Below are positions 3,115 to 61,618 of a DNA stretch of 64,000 nucleotides, in pieces. Numbering within the stretch: position 1 is the first letter of the stretch; each line of letters starts with the position of its first letter. A program made the translations under genes and the position numbers. The notes under the pieces are model-generated. The model had not been told where the DNA came from. It was given only the letters and a program-made list of their open reading frames with translations, and did not search any database. Source of the DNA: Terrisporobacter mayombei (GTDB lineage Bacteria; Bacillota; Clostridia; Peptostreptococcales; Peptostreptococcaceae); NCBI RefSeq assembly GCF_014333445.1, contig NZ_JACRYU010000005.1, positions 1 to 64,000 on the forward strand, read 5' to 3'.

Positions 3115-3284
3115 ATTAAATAAACAGGTATTTTTTGATATTACAATGTTAATAATAAATACAAATCGTATATAATTAAAAGTTATGAAAAATATTATTA
3201 TATTTGAAGAAATATTGACAAAAGTATGAAATAAAATTATGATATTATCATAACGTATAAATATAAAATTATTTTAAGACAAAA

Positions 3285-3545
3285 GCAATGATAAGAATAA
3301 GTAGTAACTAGAATAGATATACAGAAAGTAACCGGTAGATGAGAGGTGCATATACTACTATTTATGAATACATCTTTGAGCTTCACACCGAAAAGTATAA
3401 ACTTAGTAGGCTGTGACGTATTTGATACACGTTATAGTATCGTAGTACTAATAATACTAGCTGAGGTAAATAGTGTGAGCTATTTATAAACAAAGGTGGT
3501 AACGCGAGATATGCTCTCGTCCTTTTATGGACGAGGGCTTTTTTA
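3285..3545 (+). promoter_or_regulatory. T-box riboswitch (tyrosine) upstream of tyrS
   Basis: T-box leader that senses uncharged tRNA. The T-box core AAAGGTGGTAACGCG (3492-3506) contains the TGGT that would pair with the tRNA acceptor end ACCA. It is followed by a 10-base-pair terminator (3513-3522 with 3529-3538) and a T run to 3545. At the base of stem I, TAAG and CTTA arms flank an AGTA motif on the 5' side and GTATAAA on the 3' side, so TAT at 3396-3398 is the likely specifier, a tyrosine codon matching the gene downstream. The exact 5' end is an estimate. Confidence 0.88.
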
Positions 3546-3618: not shown

Positions 3619-4842
3619 ATGACAATATATGAAGAATTAGTTGCTAGAGGGTTAGTTGCTCAAGTAACAGATGAAGATGAATTAAAAGAACTTATAAATG
3701 CAGGTAAAGCTGTATTCTACATAGGATTCGATGCTACTGCAGATAGTCTTCATGTAGGACATTTTATGGCATTATGTTTAATGAAGAGGCTACAAATGGC
3801 AGGGAATAAACCTATAGCACTTATAGGTGGTGGAACAACTATGGTAGGTGACCCATCAGGAAGAACAGATATGAGACAAATGATGACACCAGAACAAATA
3901 AACCATAACTGTGAATGTTTCAAAAAACAAATGAGTAAATTTATAGATTTCTCAGATGATAAAGCTATATTAGTTAATAATGCAGATTGGTTAATGGGAT
4001 TAAATTATGTTGAATTATTAAGAGAAGTTGGATCTCATTTTAGTGTTAATAGAATGCTTACTGCTGAATGTTATAAAAACAGAATGGAAAGAGGACTTAG
4101 CTTCTTAGAGTTTAACTACATGATAATGCAAGCATTTGATTTCTATACTTTATATCAAAAATACGGTTGTCAAATGCAATTAGGTGGAAATGACCAATGG
4201 AGTAACATGTTAGCTGGAACTGACTTAATAAGACGTAAATTAGGAGAAAATGCTTATGCATTAACTATAACTTTACTTCTTAATTCAGAAGGAAATAAAA
4301 TGGGTAAAACTGCTTCAGGGGCAGTATGGCTAGATCCTAATAAAACTTCTCCATTTGAATTTTATCAATACTGGAGAAATGTTGCAGACGCTGATGTATT
4401 TAAATGTATGCGTATGTTAACATTTTTACCGTTAGAAGAAATAGAGGCAATAGAAAAATGGGAAGATAATAGAATAAATGAAGCTAAAGAAATATTAGCA
4501 TTCGAATTAACTAAACTTGTTCATAGTGAAGAAGAGGCTACAAAAGCTCAAGAAAGTTCAAGAGCATTATTCACTGGTGGAGCATCAGAGCATATGCCTA
4601 CAACTGAAATAAGCGAAGAAGATTTAACTGATGGAGCTATAGACATAATATCTTTACTAGTTAAGAGTGAGCTTGCGCCAACTAGATCAGAAGGAAGACG
4701 TAATGTAGAACAAGGTGGAGTAACTGTTGATGGAGAAAAGGTTACTGATTTCAAAGCTGTATTTACTAAGGAAGCTTTAGCTGGTGATGGTATAGTTATA
4801 AAACGTGGAAAGAAAAAATTCAAAAGAGTAATTTTAAAATAG
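3619..4842 (+). CDS. tyrS: Tyrosyl-tRNA synthetase
   Basis: Class I aminoacyl-tRNA synthetase that charges tRNA-Tyr. At 407 residues it has the class I HIGH motif as HVGH (45-48), the GGNDQWSN tyrosine/ATP-site segment (189-196) and the KMSKS-equivalent KMGKT (227-231). A C-terminal S4-like RNA-binding domain covers about 340-407. The ribosome binding site AGGAGAGG precedes the ATG. Expression should rise when uncharged tRNA-Tyr binds the T-box leader upstream. A strong, probably bidirectional terminator follows. Confidence 0.97.
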
Positions 4843-56037: not shown

Positions 56038-56964
56038 ATGGATATAATAGAAAACTTAAGGGTACAAGGGGTAAGTGAGTCACTTATAAAAGATATACTA
56101 CATTTTAGAAAAGAATTTAATGTAGATGAGGACGTCGAACATAGAGTGACAAAGTCACCTACATTTTATATAGGGGAAGATATACTTTCTATGTGTATAT
56201 CAGCAATTTTAGAGGAAGAAAATATTTTATTATCTGGTCCAAAAGCTACTGGAAAAAATTTATTATCAGATAACTTATCTGAAATATTTGGTAGACCTCA
56301 ATGGAATACTTCATTTCATATAAATACAGATAGTTCATCTTTAATTGGAACAGATACATTCATTGATAATGAGGTAAGGTTGAGAAGAGGTTCTGTATAT
56401 GAATGTGCACTTCACGGTGGTTTTGGAGTATTTGATGAGATAAATATGGCAAAGAATGATGCAATAGTAGTAGTACATTCTGCACTAGATTATAGAAGAA
56501 TAATAGACGTACCAGGATACGAAAGAATAAATCTACATCCAGCCACTAGGTTTATAGGAACAATGAACTATGAATATGCAGGAACTAAAGAGTTGAATGA
56601 AGCTTTGGTATCTAGATTTTTAGTTATAGATATTCCGGCAGTAGATGAGGGTAAATTAATGATGATTCTAAAGAGAGAGTTTCCATACGCAGATGAAGAG
56701 AAATTAAATCAGTTTGCAGGAATATTCTTAGATTTACAATTAAAGTCACAAAATGGAGAAATATCAACAAAGTCTATAGATTTAAGGGGATTAATAGGGT
56801 CTTTAAAAACAATTAAAAGAGGATTAAAGCCGACTTTAGCTATAAATATGGGGCTTACAGGTAAGACTTTTGATATTTATGAAAAAGAAATAGTAAATGA
56901 TATTATAAGAACGAGGATACCGGAAAAATGGGAAAGTAAAGATATATTTTTAGCTGGGCAATAA
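56038..56964 (+). CDS. MoxR-type AAA+ ATPase (NorQ/CbbQ-like)
   Basis: 308 residues. An N-terminal helical region is followed by an AAA+ core: Walker A GPKATGKN (67-74), Walker B GVFDEIN (D133, E134), sensor-1 GTMN (174-177) and an arginine-finger region ALVSRF (189-194). The Walker A motif ends in Asn where Thr or Ser normally coordinates Mg2+. MoxR ATPases pair with VWA proteins to remodel or insert metal into client enzymes. The VWA gene follows 19 bases later. The client is unknown; the cob genes and a cobalamin riboswitch lie within 3 kb. AAAGGAG precedes the ATG. Confidence 0.85.
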   Translation: MDIIENLRVQGVSESLIKDILHFRKEFNVDEDVEHRVTKSPTFYIGEDILSMCISAILEEENILLSGPKATGKNLLSDNLSEIFGRPQWNTSFHINTDSSSLIGTDTFIDNEVRLRRGSVYECALHGGFGVFDEINMAKNDAIVVVHSALDYRRIIDVPGYERINLHPATRFIGTMNYEYAGTKELNEALVSRFLVIDIPAVDEGKLMMILKREFPYADEEKLNQFAGIFLDLQLKSQNGEISTKSIDLRGLIGSLKTIKRGLKPTLAINMGLTGKTFDIYEKEIVNDIIRTRIPEKWESKDIFLAGQ

Positions 56965-56983
56965 TCCAGGGTAGGTGATAAAT

Positions 56984-58774
56984 ATGAGTAATAATACTAA
57001 CTGGATATATAATAATTATGAATTTGAGAATAGAATCAATAATTTATCTTGGACTATTTCTGGAAATTATGATGAAGATATGGATACTAGTGAGAAGGAT
57101 TATTCATCAAAGGATGTTTCTTTATATTTTGCTATAGTTGCAGGAGCTAGGAGGAAGTTTTTAGATTGGAATATTATAAAAAAATATATTATGAGTAGGA
57201 TGAAAAAAGGATATGACAAAGATATTTTAATGACACTTATACAAATAGTTTTAAATTGTGTGGTTGAAAATAAAGTTATAAATGAAAGACCAGGTGTAGA
57301 AGAAATAAGAAATAAGGCATATTCTGATATATTAGTTAATTATAATAAGATACATAAAGAAGATATTTTAGAAGTTCTAAAATATACTTTTATACTTGAA
57401 TCTATGGATAGACATCCTGCAGTTGATGGTTTAACAAGGAGAATAATTAATGATATTAAAACTATTAATTGTAGTGAAGAATTGATTAATATTTTAAAAA
57501 GATTAGATGAGATTTATTTGACTTATTTTGAGCATATAATGAATTCTCAACAACAGGAAAAAAATATAAACGATAAACAAATAAAAAATGTAAATGTAGA
57601 TTTTGATACTTTTTCTGATTTTATGTATGAAGAATTATATATGGATGAAGAATGGACAGAAAGTATAGAAAGTGAAATTAATAATATATCTAATTCTATG
57701 TTGGTTGAAAACTTAGGTGAAATGAATGATATTAATTTAGAAAAATCACCAAATAGAACAATTTACGTTGATGAAACCATGACACAAAAAATTTATGAAA
57801 AAGTAGAATATTATTATGGAAAGGCATTTTTAAGCAAAAATGATATAAGAATGATAGAAACAAAATGTTGTAGAGATGTTCATGAAGGTTGTAGGATACA
57901 TTTTACAGATGGCGTTTTGCGTTCTGAATGTAGTAATACTTTTCAGTTAAAATACGTTACGAGACAAAAAGAAAATAATATTTTTAAATATAGAGACAAT
58001 ATAAAACTACATAAGAGAAGTATAAACAAATTGAAAGAAAGTATATCTAGAATACTAATAGAAGAAAGTGCAGTAGATAGAATTTACTCTGATAATGGGA
58101 CTATTTGTGCGAATAAGGCCTGGAGAATCGGAAGAAGTAATAATACTAAAGTATTTTATAAAGATATACAAAATGAAAAAGGTAAATATGTTATAGATAT
58201 ATTATTAGATGCCAGTGGCTCTCAAAGTAGAAATCAATTTAATGTTGCTATACAAGCATTTATTATTGCTAAGGCTCTTACTTTAGTGGGAATACCAAAT
58301 AGAGTAATGGGATATCTTAGTTTTTTAGACTATACAGTATTAAAAAGATATAGAGACTATAATGATAATATAAATGCTTGTGAAAATATATTCGAGTATT
58401 TTGCAGCAGGAAATAATAGAGATGGGTTGGCTATAAAAGCTACTTGTGATGCTTTATTAGAAAGAGAAGAGGAAAATAAAATTCTTATAATTCTTAGTGA
58501 TGGAAAGCCTAATGATATAAAAATAGGAAAAGATAGATTTAGAAGTTTAAGAGGAGAAGCTAGTTATAAAGGAATAGTAGGTGTAAAAGATACAGCTTTA
58601 GAAGTAAGAAAAGCAAGGAAGCAAGGCATATTAGTTTTAGGTGTTTTTACAGGTAAAGAATCTGATTTAGAATCAGAAAAAATAATCTATGGTAAAGATT
58701 TTATTTATACTAAGAATATAGAAAGATTTTCTGATATTGTTGCGATGTATTTGAAGAAAATTATCAGAAATTAA
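56984..58774 (+). CDS. VWA-domain protein (NorD/CbbO-like), partner of the AAA+ ATPase
   Basis: 596 residues. The N-terminal ~250 residues are helical and of unknown fold, followed by a Cys/His-containing segment (KCCRDVHEGCRIHF, about 294-307) and a C-terminal von Willebrand A domain from about 400. The VWA MIDAS is intact: DASGS (about 409-413) and a later LSDGKPND motif that is characteristic of NorD-type proteins. No nitric-oxide reductase or Rubisco gene is near, so NorD or CbbO function is not implied. ATG 56984 follows GGTAGGTGA; an in-frame GTG nine bases earlier is possible. Not preceded or followed by a cobN-like gene. Confidence 0.85.
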   Translation: MSNNTNWIYNNYEFENRINNLSWTISGNYDEDMDTSEKDYSSKDVSLYFAIVAGARRKFLDWNIIKKYIMSRMKKGYDKDILMTLIQIVLNCVVENKVINERPGVEEIRNKAYSDILVNYNKIHKEDILEVLKYTFILESMDRHPAVDGLTRRIINDIKTINCSEELINILKRLDEIYLTYFEHIMNSQQQEKNINDKQIKNVNVDFDTFSDFMYEELYMDEEWTESIESEINNISNSMLVENLGEMNDINLEKSPNRTIYVDETMTQKIYEKVEYYYGKAFLSKNDIRMIETKCCRDVHEGCRIHFTDGVLRSECSNTFQLKYVTRQKENNIFKYRDNIKLHKRSINKLKESISRILIEESAVDRIYSDNGTICANKAWRIGRSNNTKVFYKDIQNEKGKYVIDILLDASGSQSRNQFNVAIQAFIIAKALTLVGIPNRVMGYLSFLDYTVLKRYRDYNDNINACENIFEYFAAGNNRDGLAIKATCDALLEREEENKILIILSDGKPNDIKIGKDRFRSLRGEASYKGIVGVKDTALEVRKARKQGILVLGVFTGKESDLESEKIIYGKDFIYTKNIERFSDIVAMYLKKIIRN

Positions 58775-58838
58775 TATTTTCTAGGGGAAATTTATCAAGA
58801 ATAAATATGGTAAAAAATAACAAATAAACAGTTTTGTG

Positions 58839-58847
58839 TGCTATAAT
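58839..58847 (+). promoter_or_regulatory. Extended -10 promoter of the cobalamin riboswitch
   Basis: TGCTATAAT, an extended -10, stands about 35 bases ahead of the aptamer. No convincing -35 element is seen. It indicates that the riboswitch is transcribed independently of the VWA gene. Confidence 0.5.
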
Positions 58848-58880
58848 AAAAATATAGTAATGACAATTCAATAATTAAAA

Positions 58881-59056
58881 ATATTCTAGGTTCTTATGTT
58901 TAAGATTAATAGGGAAAGAGGTGTAAATCCTCTGCAGCCCCCGCTACTGTAATGTGGACGAAACTTTTTAACCACTGTGAATTTTGAGCGAAGCGAATTT
59001 CATGGGAAGGAAAAGAAGTAGGATGAAGCAAAGTCAGGAGACCTGCCTATAATATA
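58881..59056 (+). promoter_or_regulatory. Cobalamin riboswitch aptamer without a downstream gene
   Basis: Canonical adenosylcobalamin-type aptamer elements occur in order: AGGGAAAGAGGTGTAAATCC (58911-58930), GCCCCCGCTACTGTAA (58937-58952), CCACTG (58972-58977), GGGAAGG, AGGATGAAG and the B12 box AAGTCAGGAGACCTGCC (59031-59047). It is followed by a hairpin (59063-59069 with 59076-59082) holding a GGGGAGG ribosome-binding-like sequence in its loop. Only a seven-codon frame follows (from 59094), then two terminators. The next gene, pcrA, has its own ribosome binding site more than 300 bases away. Confidence 0.95.
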
Positions 59057-59115
59057 AAGTGATTTCTTCGGGGAGGAAGAAAATATCTTAATAATGATTT
59101 TTATTTGTGGATATT

Positions 59116-59145
59116 AGTACCTGATTCTTTGTTAGGTACTTTTTT
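59116..59145 (+). terminator. Intrinsic terminator downstream of the cobalamin riboswitch
   Basis: AGTACCT (59116-59122) pairs with AGGTACT (59134-59140) around 11 bases, then T6. It would release a transcript of roughly 290 bases. Confidence 0.82.
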
Positions 59146-59168
59146 AATTATTGATATGTACAAATTTG

Positions 59169-59225
59169 CCCTCAACCTATTTTATTTCAAAAATAGTTTG
59201 AAAATAGAATAACCCTTAACCTATT
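59169..59225 (+). repeat. Pair of 13-base direct repeats between the two terminators
   Basis: CCCTCAACCTATT (59169-59181) and CCCTTAACCTATT (59213-59225), one mismatch, 44 bases apart. Between them CTATTTT (59177-59183) could pair with either of two AAAATAG copies (59190-59196, 59201-59207). Confidence 0.5.
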
Positions 59226-59259
59226 CCTTAGGATTCTCCAAAATCCTAAGGATTTTTTT
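59225..59259 (+). terminator. Second intrinsic terminator upstream of pcrA
   Basis: TCCTTAGGATT (59225-59235) pairs perfectly with AATCCTAAGGA (59242-59252), six-base loop, T7. Confidence 0.9.
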
Positions 59260-59377
59260 CTATCTTATATTTGTATTTAAACATTTATTCATGGGAATTA
59301 TTATAATATTATTGGATTTGAAGAAAATAAAGAATTAGATTAAAATATATTTATATGAGCATTATAGGAGGAAATAT

Positions 59378-61618
59378 ATGATTTTAGATATATTAGATAA
59401 ATTAAATCCAGCTCAGAGGGAAGCGGTAGAAAATACAGAAGGACCTGTATTGATATTAGCAGGGGCTGGATCAGGAAAGACGAGAGTTTTAACAACTAGG
59501 ATAGGTCACCTTATGGAAAATAAGGGAGTAAAAGCTGAAAATATTTTAGCTATTACTTTTACAAATAAAGCGGCAAACGAGATGAGAGAGAGGGTAGAAG
59601 AAACTCTTGAAGGTACCGATACTAAGGAAATGTGGATTACTACATTCCACTCTTGTTGTGTTCGTATATTAAGAAAGAGTATTAACAAAATAGGATATAA
59701 TAGAAGTTTCGTAATTTATGATAGTGCTGATCAGGTAACTTTAATTAAGGACTGTTTAAGAGAATTAAATTTAAGTGATAAAGCATTTGATCCTAAGGTT
59801 ATACTAAGTGCTATATCAAATGCTAAAGATAAGCTATATTCACCAAAAAAATTCATTCAATTAAATGAAGGTGATATTGCCAAAACTAAAATAGGAGAAG
59901 TATATGCTCTATATCAAGATCGTTTAAAAAGAAATAGTGCTTTAGATTTTGATGATTTAATAATGAAGACGGTGGAATTATTTAAAGAGCATCCAGAAGT
60001 CTTAGATTATTATAGGAATAAATTTAGGTACATAATGGTAGATGAGTATCAAGACACGAGTAAAGCTCAATATGAACTTATAAAACTATTAGCAAAACAA
60101 CATCAAAATATTTGTGTCGTTGGAGATGATGACCAAAGTATTTATGGATGGAGAGGTGCTGATATAAGAAATATACTTGAATTTGAAAGAGACTATGATA
60201 ATGTTCGTATTGTAAAATTAGAGCAAAACTATAGATCTACTCAGGTAATACTAGATGCAGCTAACCATGTTATTTCAAATAATATAGAAAGAAAAAGAAA
60301 AAAACTTTGGAGTGAACAAAAAGAAGGACAATTAATTAAAATTCAATTAGCTGAAAATGAGATTGAAGAAGGTGACTTTATATCAAATACTATATCTTAC
60401 ATGAGAAGATATGAAGGAAGAGAGTATAAAGACTTTGCAGTTTTATATAGAGCAAATGCGCAAGCTCGTTCTGTAGAAGATTCATTAAATAGAAATGGAA
60501 TTCCATATAACATTTATGGTGGAATCAAATTCTATGAAAGAAAAGAGATAAAAGATATAATTGCTTATCTAAGAGTGCTACAAAACCCTCAAGATGATAT
60601 ATCTTTAAAAAGAATTATAAACGTTCCTAGACGTGGTATAGGTCTTAGAACAATAGAAAAAATAGAAGATAGAGCTAGTTTAAAAGAAGAAAGTCTATAC
60701 TCAGTATTAATTGATATTGAAGATAACTCTGATATTTCAAGAAAGGCAAGAGCAAGTATAAGTGAATTTGTTGATTTAATGTCTACTTTAAGAAGTTTTA
60801 CAGATGTATATTCTGTTAGCCAGATTATAGAAAAAGTATTAGATGTTACAGGGTATATAGATGAATTAGAAAAAGAAAAAAATGGTGAAGGAGAAGACAG
60901 AATAGAAAACCTAAAGGAATTTATATCTGTCGCGCTAGAATTTGAAAGTGCTAACGAAGATAAAAGTTTAGAATCATTTTTAACTAATGTAGCATTATCT
61001 GCTGAACCATCTAACGAAGAAGAAGAGGTTGATAGAGTTTCTTTAATGACTATACATTCATCAAAAGGTCTTGAATTTCCAGTTGTATTCTTAGCTGGTA
61101 TGGAAGAAAAAATATTCCCAATAGCAAGGGCAATTAGTTCTATGAATGATTCAGAAATAGAAGAAGAAAGAAGACTTTGTTATGTTGGTATAACAAGAGC
61201 TAAGGAAGAATTATTCTTAACTTTAACAAGAAAAAGAACTTTATATGGTAGAACAAACCCTTCAATTGCATCTAGGTTTATAGAAGAGCTACCAGAAGAA
61301 TGTATAGAAAGATTAAACAAAGAGCAAAAAGAATTGTCTTATTCCAAAGCCAATTATAATATGCTTGATAAGTATACTAAAAAATATATGAATAATATGA
61401 ATAAGGTTCAAGTGGCTCAAAAAGTAAATGCTACTATAAAAAGTAGTACTACTGAAAGTAATATAGATGAAATAAAATTGGGTGCTAAGGTTCATCATCC
61501 TAAGTTTGGTATTGGAACAGTTGTTGCTTTAAAAGGACCAGATGTTACTATAGCGTTTGATAATCAAGGGGTAAAAACTATAAATAAAGAATACACAACT
61601 TTAGATATAGTTAAATAG
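59378..61618 (+). CDS. pcrA: ATP-dependent DNA helicase PcrA (UvrD/Rep family)
   Basis: Superfamily 1A 3'-5' helicase for repair and for clearing replication obstacles. 746 residues: N-terminal LNPAQREAVENT Q-motif, Walker A AGAGSGKT (28-35), VDEYQDTS Walker B, GDDDQSIYGWRGAD, and late VALMTIHSSKGLEF-like motif V. A C-terminal Tudor-like domain (LGAKVHHPKFGIGTVV) binds RNA polymerase in relatives. TAGGAGG precedes the ATG. It lies 10 bases before apeB; ligA, its usual partner in Firmicutes, is not adjacent. Confidence 0.96.
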   Translation: MILDILDKLNPAQREAVENTEGPVLILAGAGSGKTRVLTTRIGHLMENKGVKAENILAITFTNKAANEMRERVEETLEGTDTKEMWITTFHSCCVRILRKSINKIGYNRSFVIYDSADQVTLIKDCLRELNLSDKAFDPKVILSAISNAKDKLYSPKKFIQLNEGDIAKTKIGEVYALYQDRLKRNSALDFDDLIMKTVELFKEHPEVLDYYRNKFRYIMVDEYQDTSKAQYELIKLLAKQHQNICVVGDDDQSIYGWRGADIRNILEFERDYDNVRIVKLEQNYRSTQVILDAANHVISNNIERKRKKLWSEQKEGQLIKIQLAENEIEEGDFISNTISYMRRYEGREYKDFAVLYRANAQARSVEDSLNRNGIPYNIYGGIKFYERKEIKDIIAYLRVLQNPQDDISLKRIINVPRRGIGLRTIEKIEDRASLKEESLYSVLIDIEDNSDISRKARASISEFVDLMSTLRSFTDVYSVSQIIEKVLDVTGYIDELEKEKNGEGEDRIENLKEFISVALEFESANEDKSLESFLTNVALSAEPSNEEEEVDRVSLMTIHSSKGLEFPVVFLAGMEEKIFPIARAISSMNDSEIEEERRLCYVGITRAKEELFLTLTRKRTLYGRTNPSIASRFIEELPEECIERLNKEQKELSYSKANYNMLDKYTKKYMNNMNKVQVAQKVNATIKSSTTESNIDEIKLGAKVHHPKFGIGTVVALKGPDVTIAFDNQGVKTINKEYTTLDIVK

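Follow-up and report, generated by a model that had tools for sequence, protein, structure and literature searches.

An orphan cobalamin riboswitch upstream of pcrA in Terrisporobacter mayombei probably controls a small RNA derived from the 3'UTR of a former cbiMNQO operon

The riboswitch locus upstream of pcrA

The window, i.e., the whole 64,000-nucleotide stretch of Terrisporobacter mayombei DNA analysed here, carries a cobalamin riboswitch followed by two terminators, a short conserved element and the helicase gene pcrA, all on the same strand:

56038..56964, +, AAA_5 ATPase gene, synteny marker outside the unit
56975..58774, +, CobT_C/VWA protein gene, synteny marker outside the unit
58839..58847, +, extended -10 promoter of the riboswitch transcript (TG-n-TATAAT), read from the sequence
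58871..59064, +, cobalamin riboswitch aptamer (RF00174 match, 115.1 bits)
59116..59146, +, terminator 1 (T1; hairpin 59116-59140 plus U-run), proposed to be B12-controlled, from a terminator-hairpin scan
59168..59223, +, conserved element proposed as the body of a small RNA, with homology to the 3'UTR behind cbiO in relatives (alignment, covariance model)
59168..59179, +, C-rich motif 1 (GCCCTCAACCTA), closely matched downstream of cbiO in 17 of the 25 relatives read
59211..59223, +, C-rich motif 2 (AACCCTTAACCTA), found behind cbiO in 13 of these 25
59225..59259, +, terminator 2 (T2; hairpin 59225-59252 plus U-run), 3' end of the proposed small RNA, from the same scan
59318..59346, +, pcrA promoter-like site (TTGAAG-17-TAAAAT, 9/12 matches), downstream of T2
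59378..61618, +, pcrA, encoding a UvrD-family helicase (gene and domain annotation)

The preliminary description of this DNA had reported a complete, intact aptamer and proposed scoring it against the Rfam cobalamin family. The resulting RF00174 match at 58871-59064 (+) bears this out, as it covers the whole model (1-189 of 189) with 115.1 bits against a gathering score of 31.5 (E 3.9e-28). Eight further orphan copies, those of the six closest relatives of the window (G066-G071) and of genomes G030 and G054, match the family with 98.8-119.6 bits; thus, the aptamer is intact in 9/9 orphan copies including the window, and the earlier argument that its integrity speaks against simple decay was right. 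Across the nine orphan aptamers we found double changes at 5 of 50 pairs and a covariation score that none of 500 shuffles reached, which indicates conserved pairing; further pair types (9 observed) were below the shuffled mean of 10.5. Cobalamin binding and a change of expression with it are predicted for 58871-59064. In one clade genome, G069, the orphan aptamer (L161 / L216) has a long extra loop insertion, its match comprising 245 bases versus 194 in the window.

The extended -10 that had been noticed ahead of the riboswitch is absent from the sites given by a simple promoter scan, and the pattern TGTG-Y-TA-Y-A-N-T is kept at this position, with small variation, in 7/7 sequences of the clade formed by the window and G066-G071, whose seven loci were aligned. 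The two terminators were recovered as well: the scan of 58700-59450 found two terminator-like hairpins, compared with 0.2 in shuffles. The seven-locus alignment shows the T1 hairpin retained across the clade, A-T being exchanged for G-C on both sides, and in the consensus fold of the seven sequences both-side changes occur at 2 of 22 pairs, both in the T2 stem. Other details of the stretch right behind the aptamer did not hold. The seven-codon frame (59094-59117) is not conserved, with its ATG present in only 1/7 aligned sequences, and we rejected it as a leader peptide. The ribosome-binding-like hairpin (UUUCUUCGGGG...) is also present behind cbi-linked riboswitches, and thus belongs to the riboswitch's own 3' region.

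The pair of AAA_5 ATPase and CobT_C/VWA genes (56038-58774), which we take to resemble the cobaltochelatase subunits CobS/CobT, lies upstream of the riboswitch in 6/6 clade genomes and also in many relatives. Downstream, no B12 gene is found between the riboswitch and pcrA (59378-61618), as had been stated. The claim that the riboswitch controls no visible gene is correct to that extent; what it missed is that the stretch between T1 and T2 is not empty and holds the conserved element 59168-59223. Two further RNA family matches were observed in the window. RF03531 (n00280, a C. difficile small RNA in a helicase gene) matches inside pcrA at 61138-61233 (+) with 67.8 bits, and also in the relatives' loci L001 and L006, which may just reflect conserved coding sequence. 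A T-box leader (RF00230, 109.5 bits) is located at 3279-3527 (+), before a gene starting at 3619.

Loss of cbiMNQO and the element as its 3'UTR

A search with PcrA identified at least 80 loci in relatives, which are Peptostreptococcaceae, and in which the gene context could be compared, as had been suggested for finding a gene missing here. Metaclostridioides mangenotii (L002) has the order riboswitch, cbiM, cbiN, cbiQ, cbiO, pcrA, and an uncultured member of the Peptostreptococcaceae (L001) has riboswitch, cbiQ, cbiO, pcrA; the cbi names are presumed from the proteins and the gene order. For each of 71 family genomes we took up to 10 kb before pcrA and located riboswitches there by two sequence motifs with mismatches, and 11 genomes were searched in full with the covariance model. 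The two-motif search placed a riboswitch before pcrA in 35 of the 71 genomes, either next to it or several kilobases away, followed by cbiMNQO in 21, by cbiQO only in six and by no cbi gene in eight. The complete motif pair was not found before pcrA in the other 36, ten of which had less than 1.1 kb available. Two genomes have cbiMNQO with a partial record of the leader: in G052 only the B12 box is seen, and in G019 the examined stretch ends before any riboswitch. The riboswitch-cbiQ-cbiO loci (L001, L175-L178, L190, L171; genomes G001, G055-G059) represent a partial loss in the same operon, without cbiM and cbiN. In G016 (L157) a frameshift or an assembly error divides pcrA into two frames containing several stops. 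A passage of PMC11477304, a review on the riboswitches of C. difficile, lists CD0324-7 (cbiM, N, Q, O) behind a cobalamin riboswitch, an arrangement that the riboswitch-cbiMNQO-pcrA order of G007-G014 resembles.

The eight genomes without cbi genes behind the riboswitch are G066-G071, G030 and G054. PcrA is 97% identical to that of the window in G069 and 89-90% in the other clade genomes. A first PcrA tree, comprising 56 of the 71 genomes and lacking G030, groups G066-G071 with the window and gives this clade the full-operon genomes G017-G020 as its sister group (support 100/99 and 100/100). A second tree, with G030 included, omitted G016, G052 and G021 and was restricted to 42 rows (quick method). 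On it, three changes are required to explain the orphan label, each of them forced by starred branches, and one common orphan clade is rejected (p-AU 4e-57). The earlier suggestion that a transporter or biosynthesis gene was lost is supported for cbiMNQO by what stands between riboswitch and pcrA in relatives (cbiMNQO in 21/35, cbiQO in 6/35). Contrary to that suggestion, the loss is not recent, since it is common to the window and 6/6 clade genomes.

The transporter genes themselves were found elsewhere. In 6/6 clade genomes cbiMNQO lies behind its own cobalamin riboswitch at another place, and in 8/8 orphan genomes cbiM is positioned 202-326 bases behind another cobalamin riboswitch, with cbiN, cbiQ and cbiO next to it. 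Relocated CbiM of G066, G069 and G071 shares 80-83% identity with the G017 and G018 proteins, versus 68-78% with the other five CbiM in the comparison that are pcrA-linked, a pattern that fits a move within the lineage. In turn, relocated CbiM proteins of G030 and G054 are closest to each other (88%), so that horizontal transfer may have occurred there.

Between T1 and T2 we found the most conserved of nine noncoding segments compared. In the seven clade loci, 55 of 56 columns of 59168-59223 are invariant, compared with 3/28 in the spacer between T1 and the element, 28/36 in T2, 28/61 from T2 to 59310, 51/69 in the pcrA promoter and 5'UTR, and 123/218 in the aptamer core, where loop lengths vary. 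Four-fold sites of pcrA differ from the window at 45/207 (22%) in G069 and at 70-83 of 169-172 (41-48%) in the five other clade genomes. The element consists of two similar C-rich motifs flanking a hairpin, with T2 at the end. The first 10 nt of motif 1 are unpaired in 7/7 centroid folds and 5/7 minimum-energy folds, and the core of motif 2 (CCCUUAACC) is unpaired in 7/7 folds; four bases of motif 1 are paired in the consensus fold, which counts against a small RNA. A one-base indel and missing start codons in the alignment leave no shared reading frame in the element, and a small ORF was therefore rejected. Searches of Rfam 15 (4227 families) gave no matches up to E 1 for 59050-59377, and the element copies of two relatives, in L274 and L270, likewise had none up to E 0.5.

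A covariance model of the element, with up to 60 first-look candidates per genome scored, has matches in at least 20 of the 71 family genomes: one place each in the six clade genomes, G017-G020 and G007-G014, and weak matches in G053 (one place) and G052 (two neighbouring). The two in G052 (C10:330-547; E 0.008 and 0.013) are possibly a tandem copy. In the clade genomes, the place next to pcrA was the sole match among these candidates, and the relocated operons had none. Among 25 relatives whose sequence behind the cbiO stop was read, motif 1 is present in 17 (G007-G020, G053, G058, G059) and motif 2 in 13, all of them also bearing motif 1 (G007-G014, G017-G020, G053); two (G028, G029) have the variant GCCCCTAATC, and in six (G001, G002, G006, G024, G055, G056) nothing similar was found. 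In relatives, the element thus immediately follows the cbiO stop codon and precedes the terminator of the mRNA, a position that identifies it as the operon's 3'UTR. In G030, the stretch after the orphan riboswitch has its homologue in the 3'UTR of the sister genomes G028 and G029; in G054, where another gene intervenes before pcrA, it resembles the 3'UTRs of G058 and G015 less clearly. Both ends of the operon are kept in the clade and the four coding genes between riboswitch and 3'UTR are lost; the same arrangement is found independently in G030 and, less clearly, in G054. Together with the clade element, these stretches show the genes lost in three lineages with both ends kept.

A riboswitch-controlled small RNA and alternative explanations

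The locus can be read as the two ends of a former B12-riboswitch-cbiMNQO operon whose coding middle is gone. We consider it likely, from the comparison of sequences, that the riboswitch controls a stand-alone small RNA derived from the former 3'UTR, through read-through of T1 at low B12. The aptamer would work as an OFF switch: with B12 bound, T1 would form and transcription would stop near 59146; at low B12, the polymerase would pass T1, make 59168-59259 and end at T2. The former cbiO 3'UTR at 59168-59259 would then act in trans as a small RNA, its two C-rich motifs pairing with mRNAs at purine-rich ribosome-binding sites. Expression of the element, the direction of its control by B12, its release as a small RNA and its targets are what we infer. 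The segment is conserved, noncoding and positioned behind the terminator proposed to be regulated, with T2 as a terminator of its own. In G067 only 4 nt separate the T1 U-run from the start of the element, and this gap, together with the unconserved spacer, leaves the riboswitch promoter as the only conserved one able to make the element, which implies read-through of T1. Class-I cobalamin riboswitches are described as OFF switches in a passage of PMC11477304, and the element would accordingly be expected when B12 is low.

Pairing of the T1 5' arm with the aptamer 5' strand is suggestive of an antiterminator. Over 36 leaders, the pairing energy was -5.04 kcal/mol for own arms, -4.89 for swapped and -2.89 for shuffled ones; the candidate beats shuffled but not swapped arms and has no species-specific fit. 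This poor fit speaks against the small RNA reading, as do the paired bases in motif 1, the six relatives that have cbiO but lack the element, the low count of further pair types in the aptamers and the complement searches described below, in which no enrichment was seen.

Among the three options of the preliminary description, a B12-responsive short RNA is now the best supported, given a nearly invariant element between T1 and T2 that was the 3'UTR of the former operon. The locus might instead be a passive relic, left without function when cbiMNQO moved off. The relocated operon has its own riboswitch, which makes the orphan copy unneeded for cobalt uptake, and the site can be lost, as the 36 of 71 genomes without the motif pair before pcrA indicate (10 of them with less than 1.1 kb). 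Such a relic is nevertheless unlikely: the aptamer is intact in every orphan copy, the element is nearly invariant at a distance where four-fold sites of pcrA changed by up to 48%, and both ends are kept in three lineages.

A cis or trans action of the element on the leaders of cobalamin riboswitches, with AACCUA pairing to UAGGUU in the aptamer 5' strand, is quite improbable. AACCUA is indeed present in both motifs, and most of the 36 leaders have UAGGUU there; yet the motif of G028, G029 and G030 is GCCCCTAATCTT, without AACCTA, though their aptamer keeps TAGGTT, and the CCCT part is left unexplained.

The option of read-through gating toward pcrA is not supported. pcrA is the next gene on the same strand, and the riboswitch would control it by read-through of T1 and T2; T2, however, is a strong hairpin kept by double changes, and the promoter-like site behind it is kept in 7/7 clade sequences, which makes riboswitch control of pcrA very unlikely and would in any case leave the conserved element unexplained. 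In the scan, promoter-like sites were no commoner than in shuffles. Hardly any weight falls on the element being no more than a terminator or a region for mRNA stability conserved from the old operon, as its position directly behind cbiO in relatives and its terminator end could suggest, since the clade has no coding mRNA left to stabilise and the element (55/56) is more conserved than the terminator stem itself (28/36).

Candidate targets and relation to known regulatory RNAs

In Gram-positive small RNAs, unpaired C-rich motifs often bind ribosome-binding sites. We found that AATAGGTTRAGGG with up to two mismatches is rarer than the reversed pattern in 6/6 genomes (among the matches listed), and exact AGGTTRAGGG is rarer in 5/6. 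G066 has 18 exact sites against 11 for the reversed pattern, and at least seven of the 18 belong to repeated copies at a constant distance from rRNA-like sequence, as in rRNA operons; the contexts read for exact loci may show another match of the same locus. One conserved candidate target is the ribosome-binding site AATAGGATAAGGG / AATAGGATAAGGGGG of a gene that by eye is of ferredoxin/hydrogenase type, present in three close relatives only (G066, G067, G068; L246, L247, L242); AATAGGATAAGGGGG differs at a single base from the 13-base sequence complementary to the C-rich motifs.

Genes of B12-binding proteins (PF02310) were compared with other genes by the duplex energy of their start regions, initially 15 against 51 window genes and then 24 against 182. 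In the larger set, the mean was -10.1 versus -8.3 (p 0.017, uncorrected), where the 24 regions include orthologs of each other and the 182 controls include loci taken for matching the complement pattern. After subtraction of shuffled C-rich seeds, p was 0.036 (uncorrected, exploratory). Energies of -13 or lower were reached by 5/24 B12-binding and 13/182 other regions. The strongest B12-binding start regions belong to two neighbouring G066 genes (L327, L318), and the best single region is that of rpiB in the window (35902; -18.9), which is not a B12 gene. These comparisons make B12-binding proteins a weak lead as targets.

RyhB is an iron-sparing small RNA, and a cobalamin-sparing RNA would be its B12 counterpart. 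Tentatively, and with considerable doubt, we suggest that the element could be such an RNA, silencing mRNAs of corrinoid proteins at low B12 through its C-rich motifs, and being part of the cbiMNQO operon in many Peptostreptococcaceae and of a stand-alone riboswitch-small RNA unit in three lineages.

Several known systems share parts of this arrangement. Rli55 and EutX of Listeria and Enterococcus are trans-acting RNAs that sequester EutV via ANTAR dual-hairpin motifs. They likewise have a B12 riboswitch ahead of a trans-acting RNA; the loops of the element, however, are unlike the ANTAR motif when compared by eye, and C-rich single strands take its place. SreA and SreB of Listeria are trans-acting RNAs of SAM riboswitches, a trans role of a riboswitch transcript that is also proposed here. 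There, the terminated riboswitch itself acts, whereas here the conserved part is the segment behind the terminator.

Passages of PMC8079631 name Rli55 as a vitamin B12 riboswitch and describe AspocR of Listeria monocytogenes, a noncoding RNA put under a B12 riboswitch by premature termination. Like AspocR, the RNA proposed for the window would be a noncoding RNA behind a B12 riboswitch with termination control; AspocR is 1,400 nt long and antisense to the neighbouring pocR, whereas the proposed RNA would be short and derived from an operon 3'UTR, with no annotated neighbour to which it is antisense. In C. difficile, 18 3'UTR-derived small RNAs are credited to Fuchs et al. 2021 in a passage of PMC9438474, where an RNA of a Listeria SAM-riboswitch transcript is also said to act in trans. 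The proposed RNA would similarly end at an mRNA terminator, yet here the coding genes are gone and the 5' riboswitch directly fronts the former 3'UTR. B12-riboswitch-controlled noncoding RNAs and 3'UTR-derived small RNAs are thus each already known. A cbiO 3'UTR small RNA was not found in literature searches and C. difficile main texts; Fuchs et al. 2021 may list the element.

The independent losses with both ends kept suggest selection on the coupling of the RNA to B12 sensing. The locus would illustrate a birth route of a regulatory RNA unit, in which the loss of the coding genes between them joins a metabolite sensor to a 3'UTR, so that a small RNA gated by the ligand is left. If so, the same RNA is expected inside the cbiMNQO mRNA of relatives of the G007-G014 type, which would point to a testable B12 regulon, and gene-less riboswitches elsewhere could be screened likewise via the 3'UTR of the former operon.
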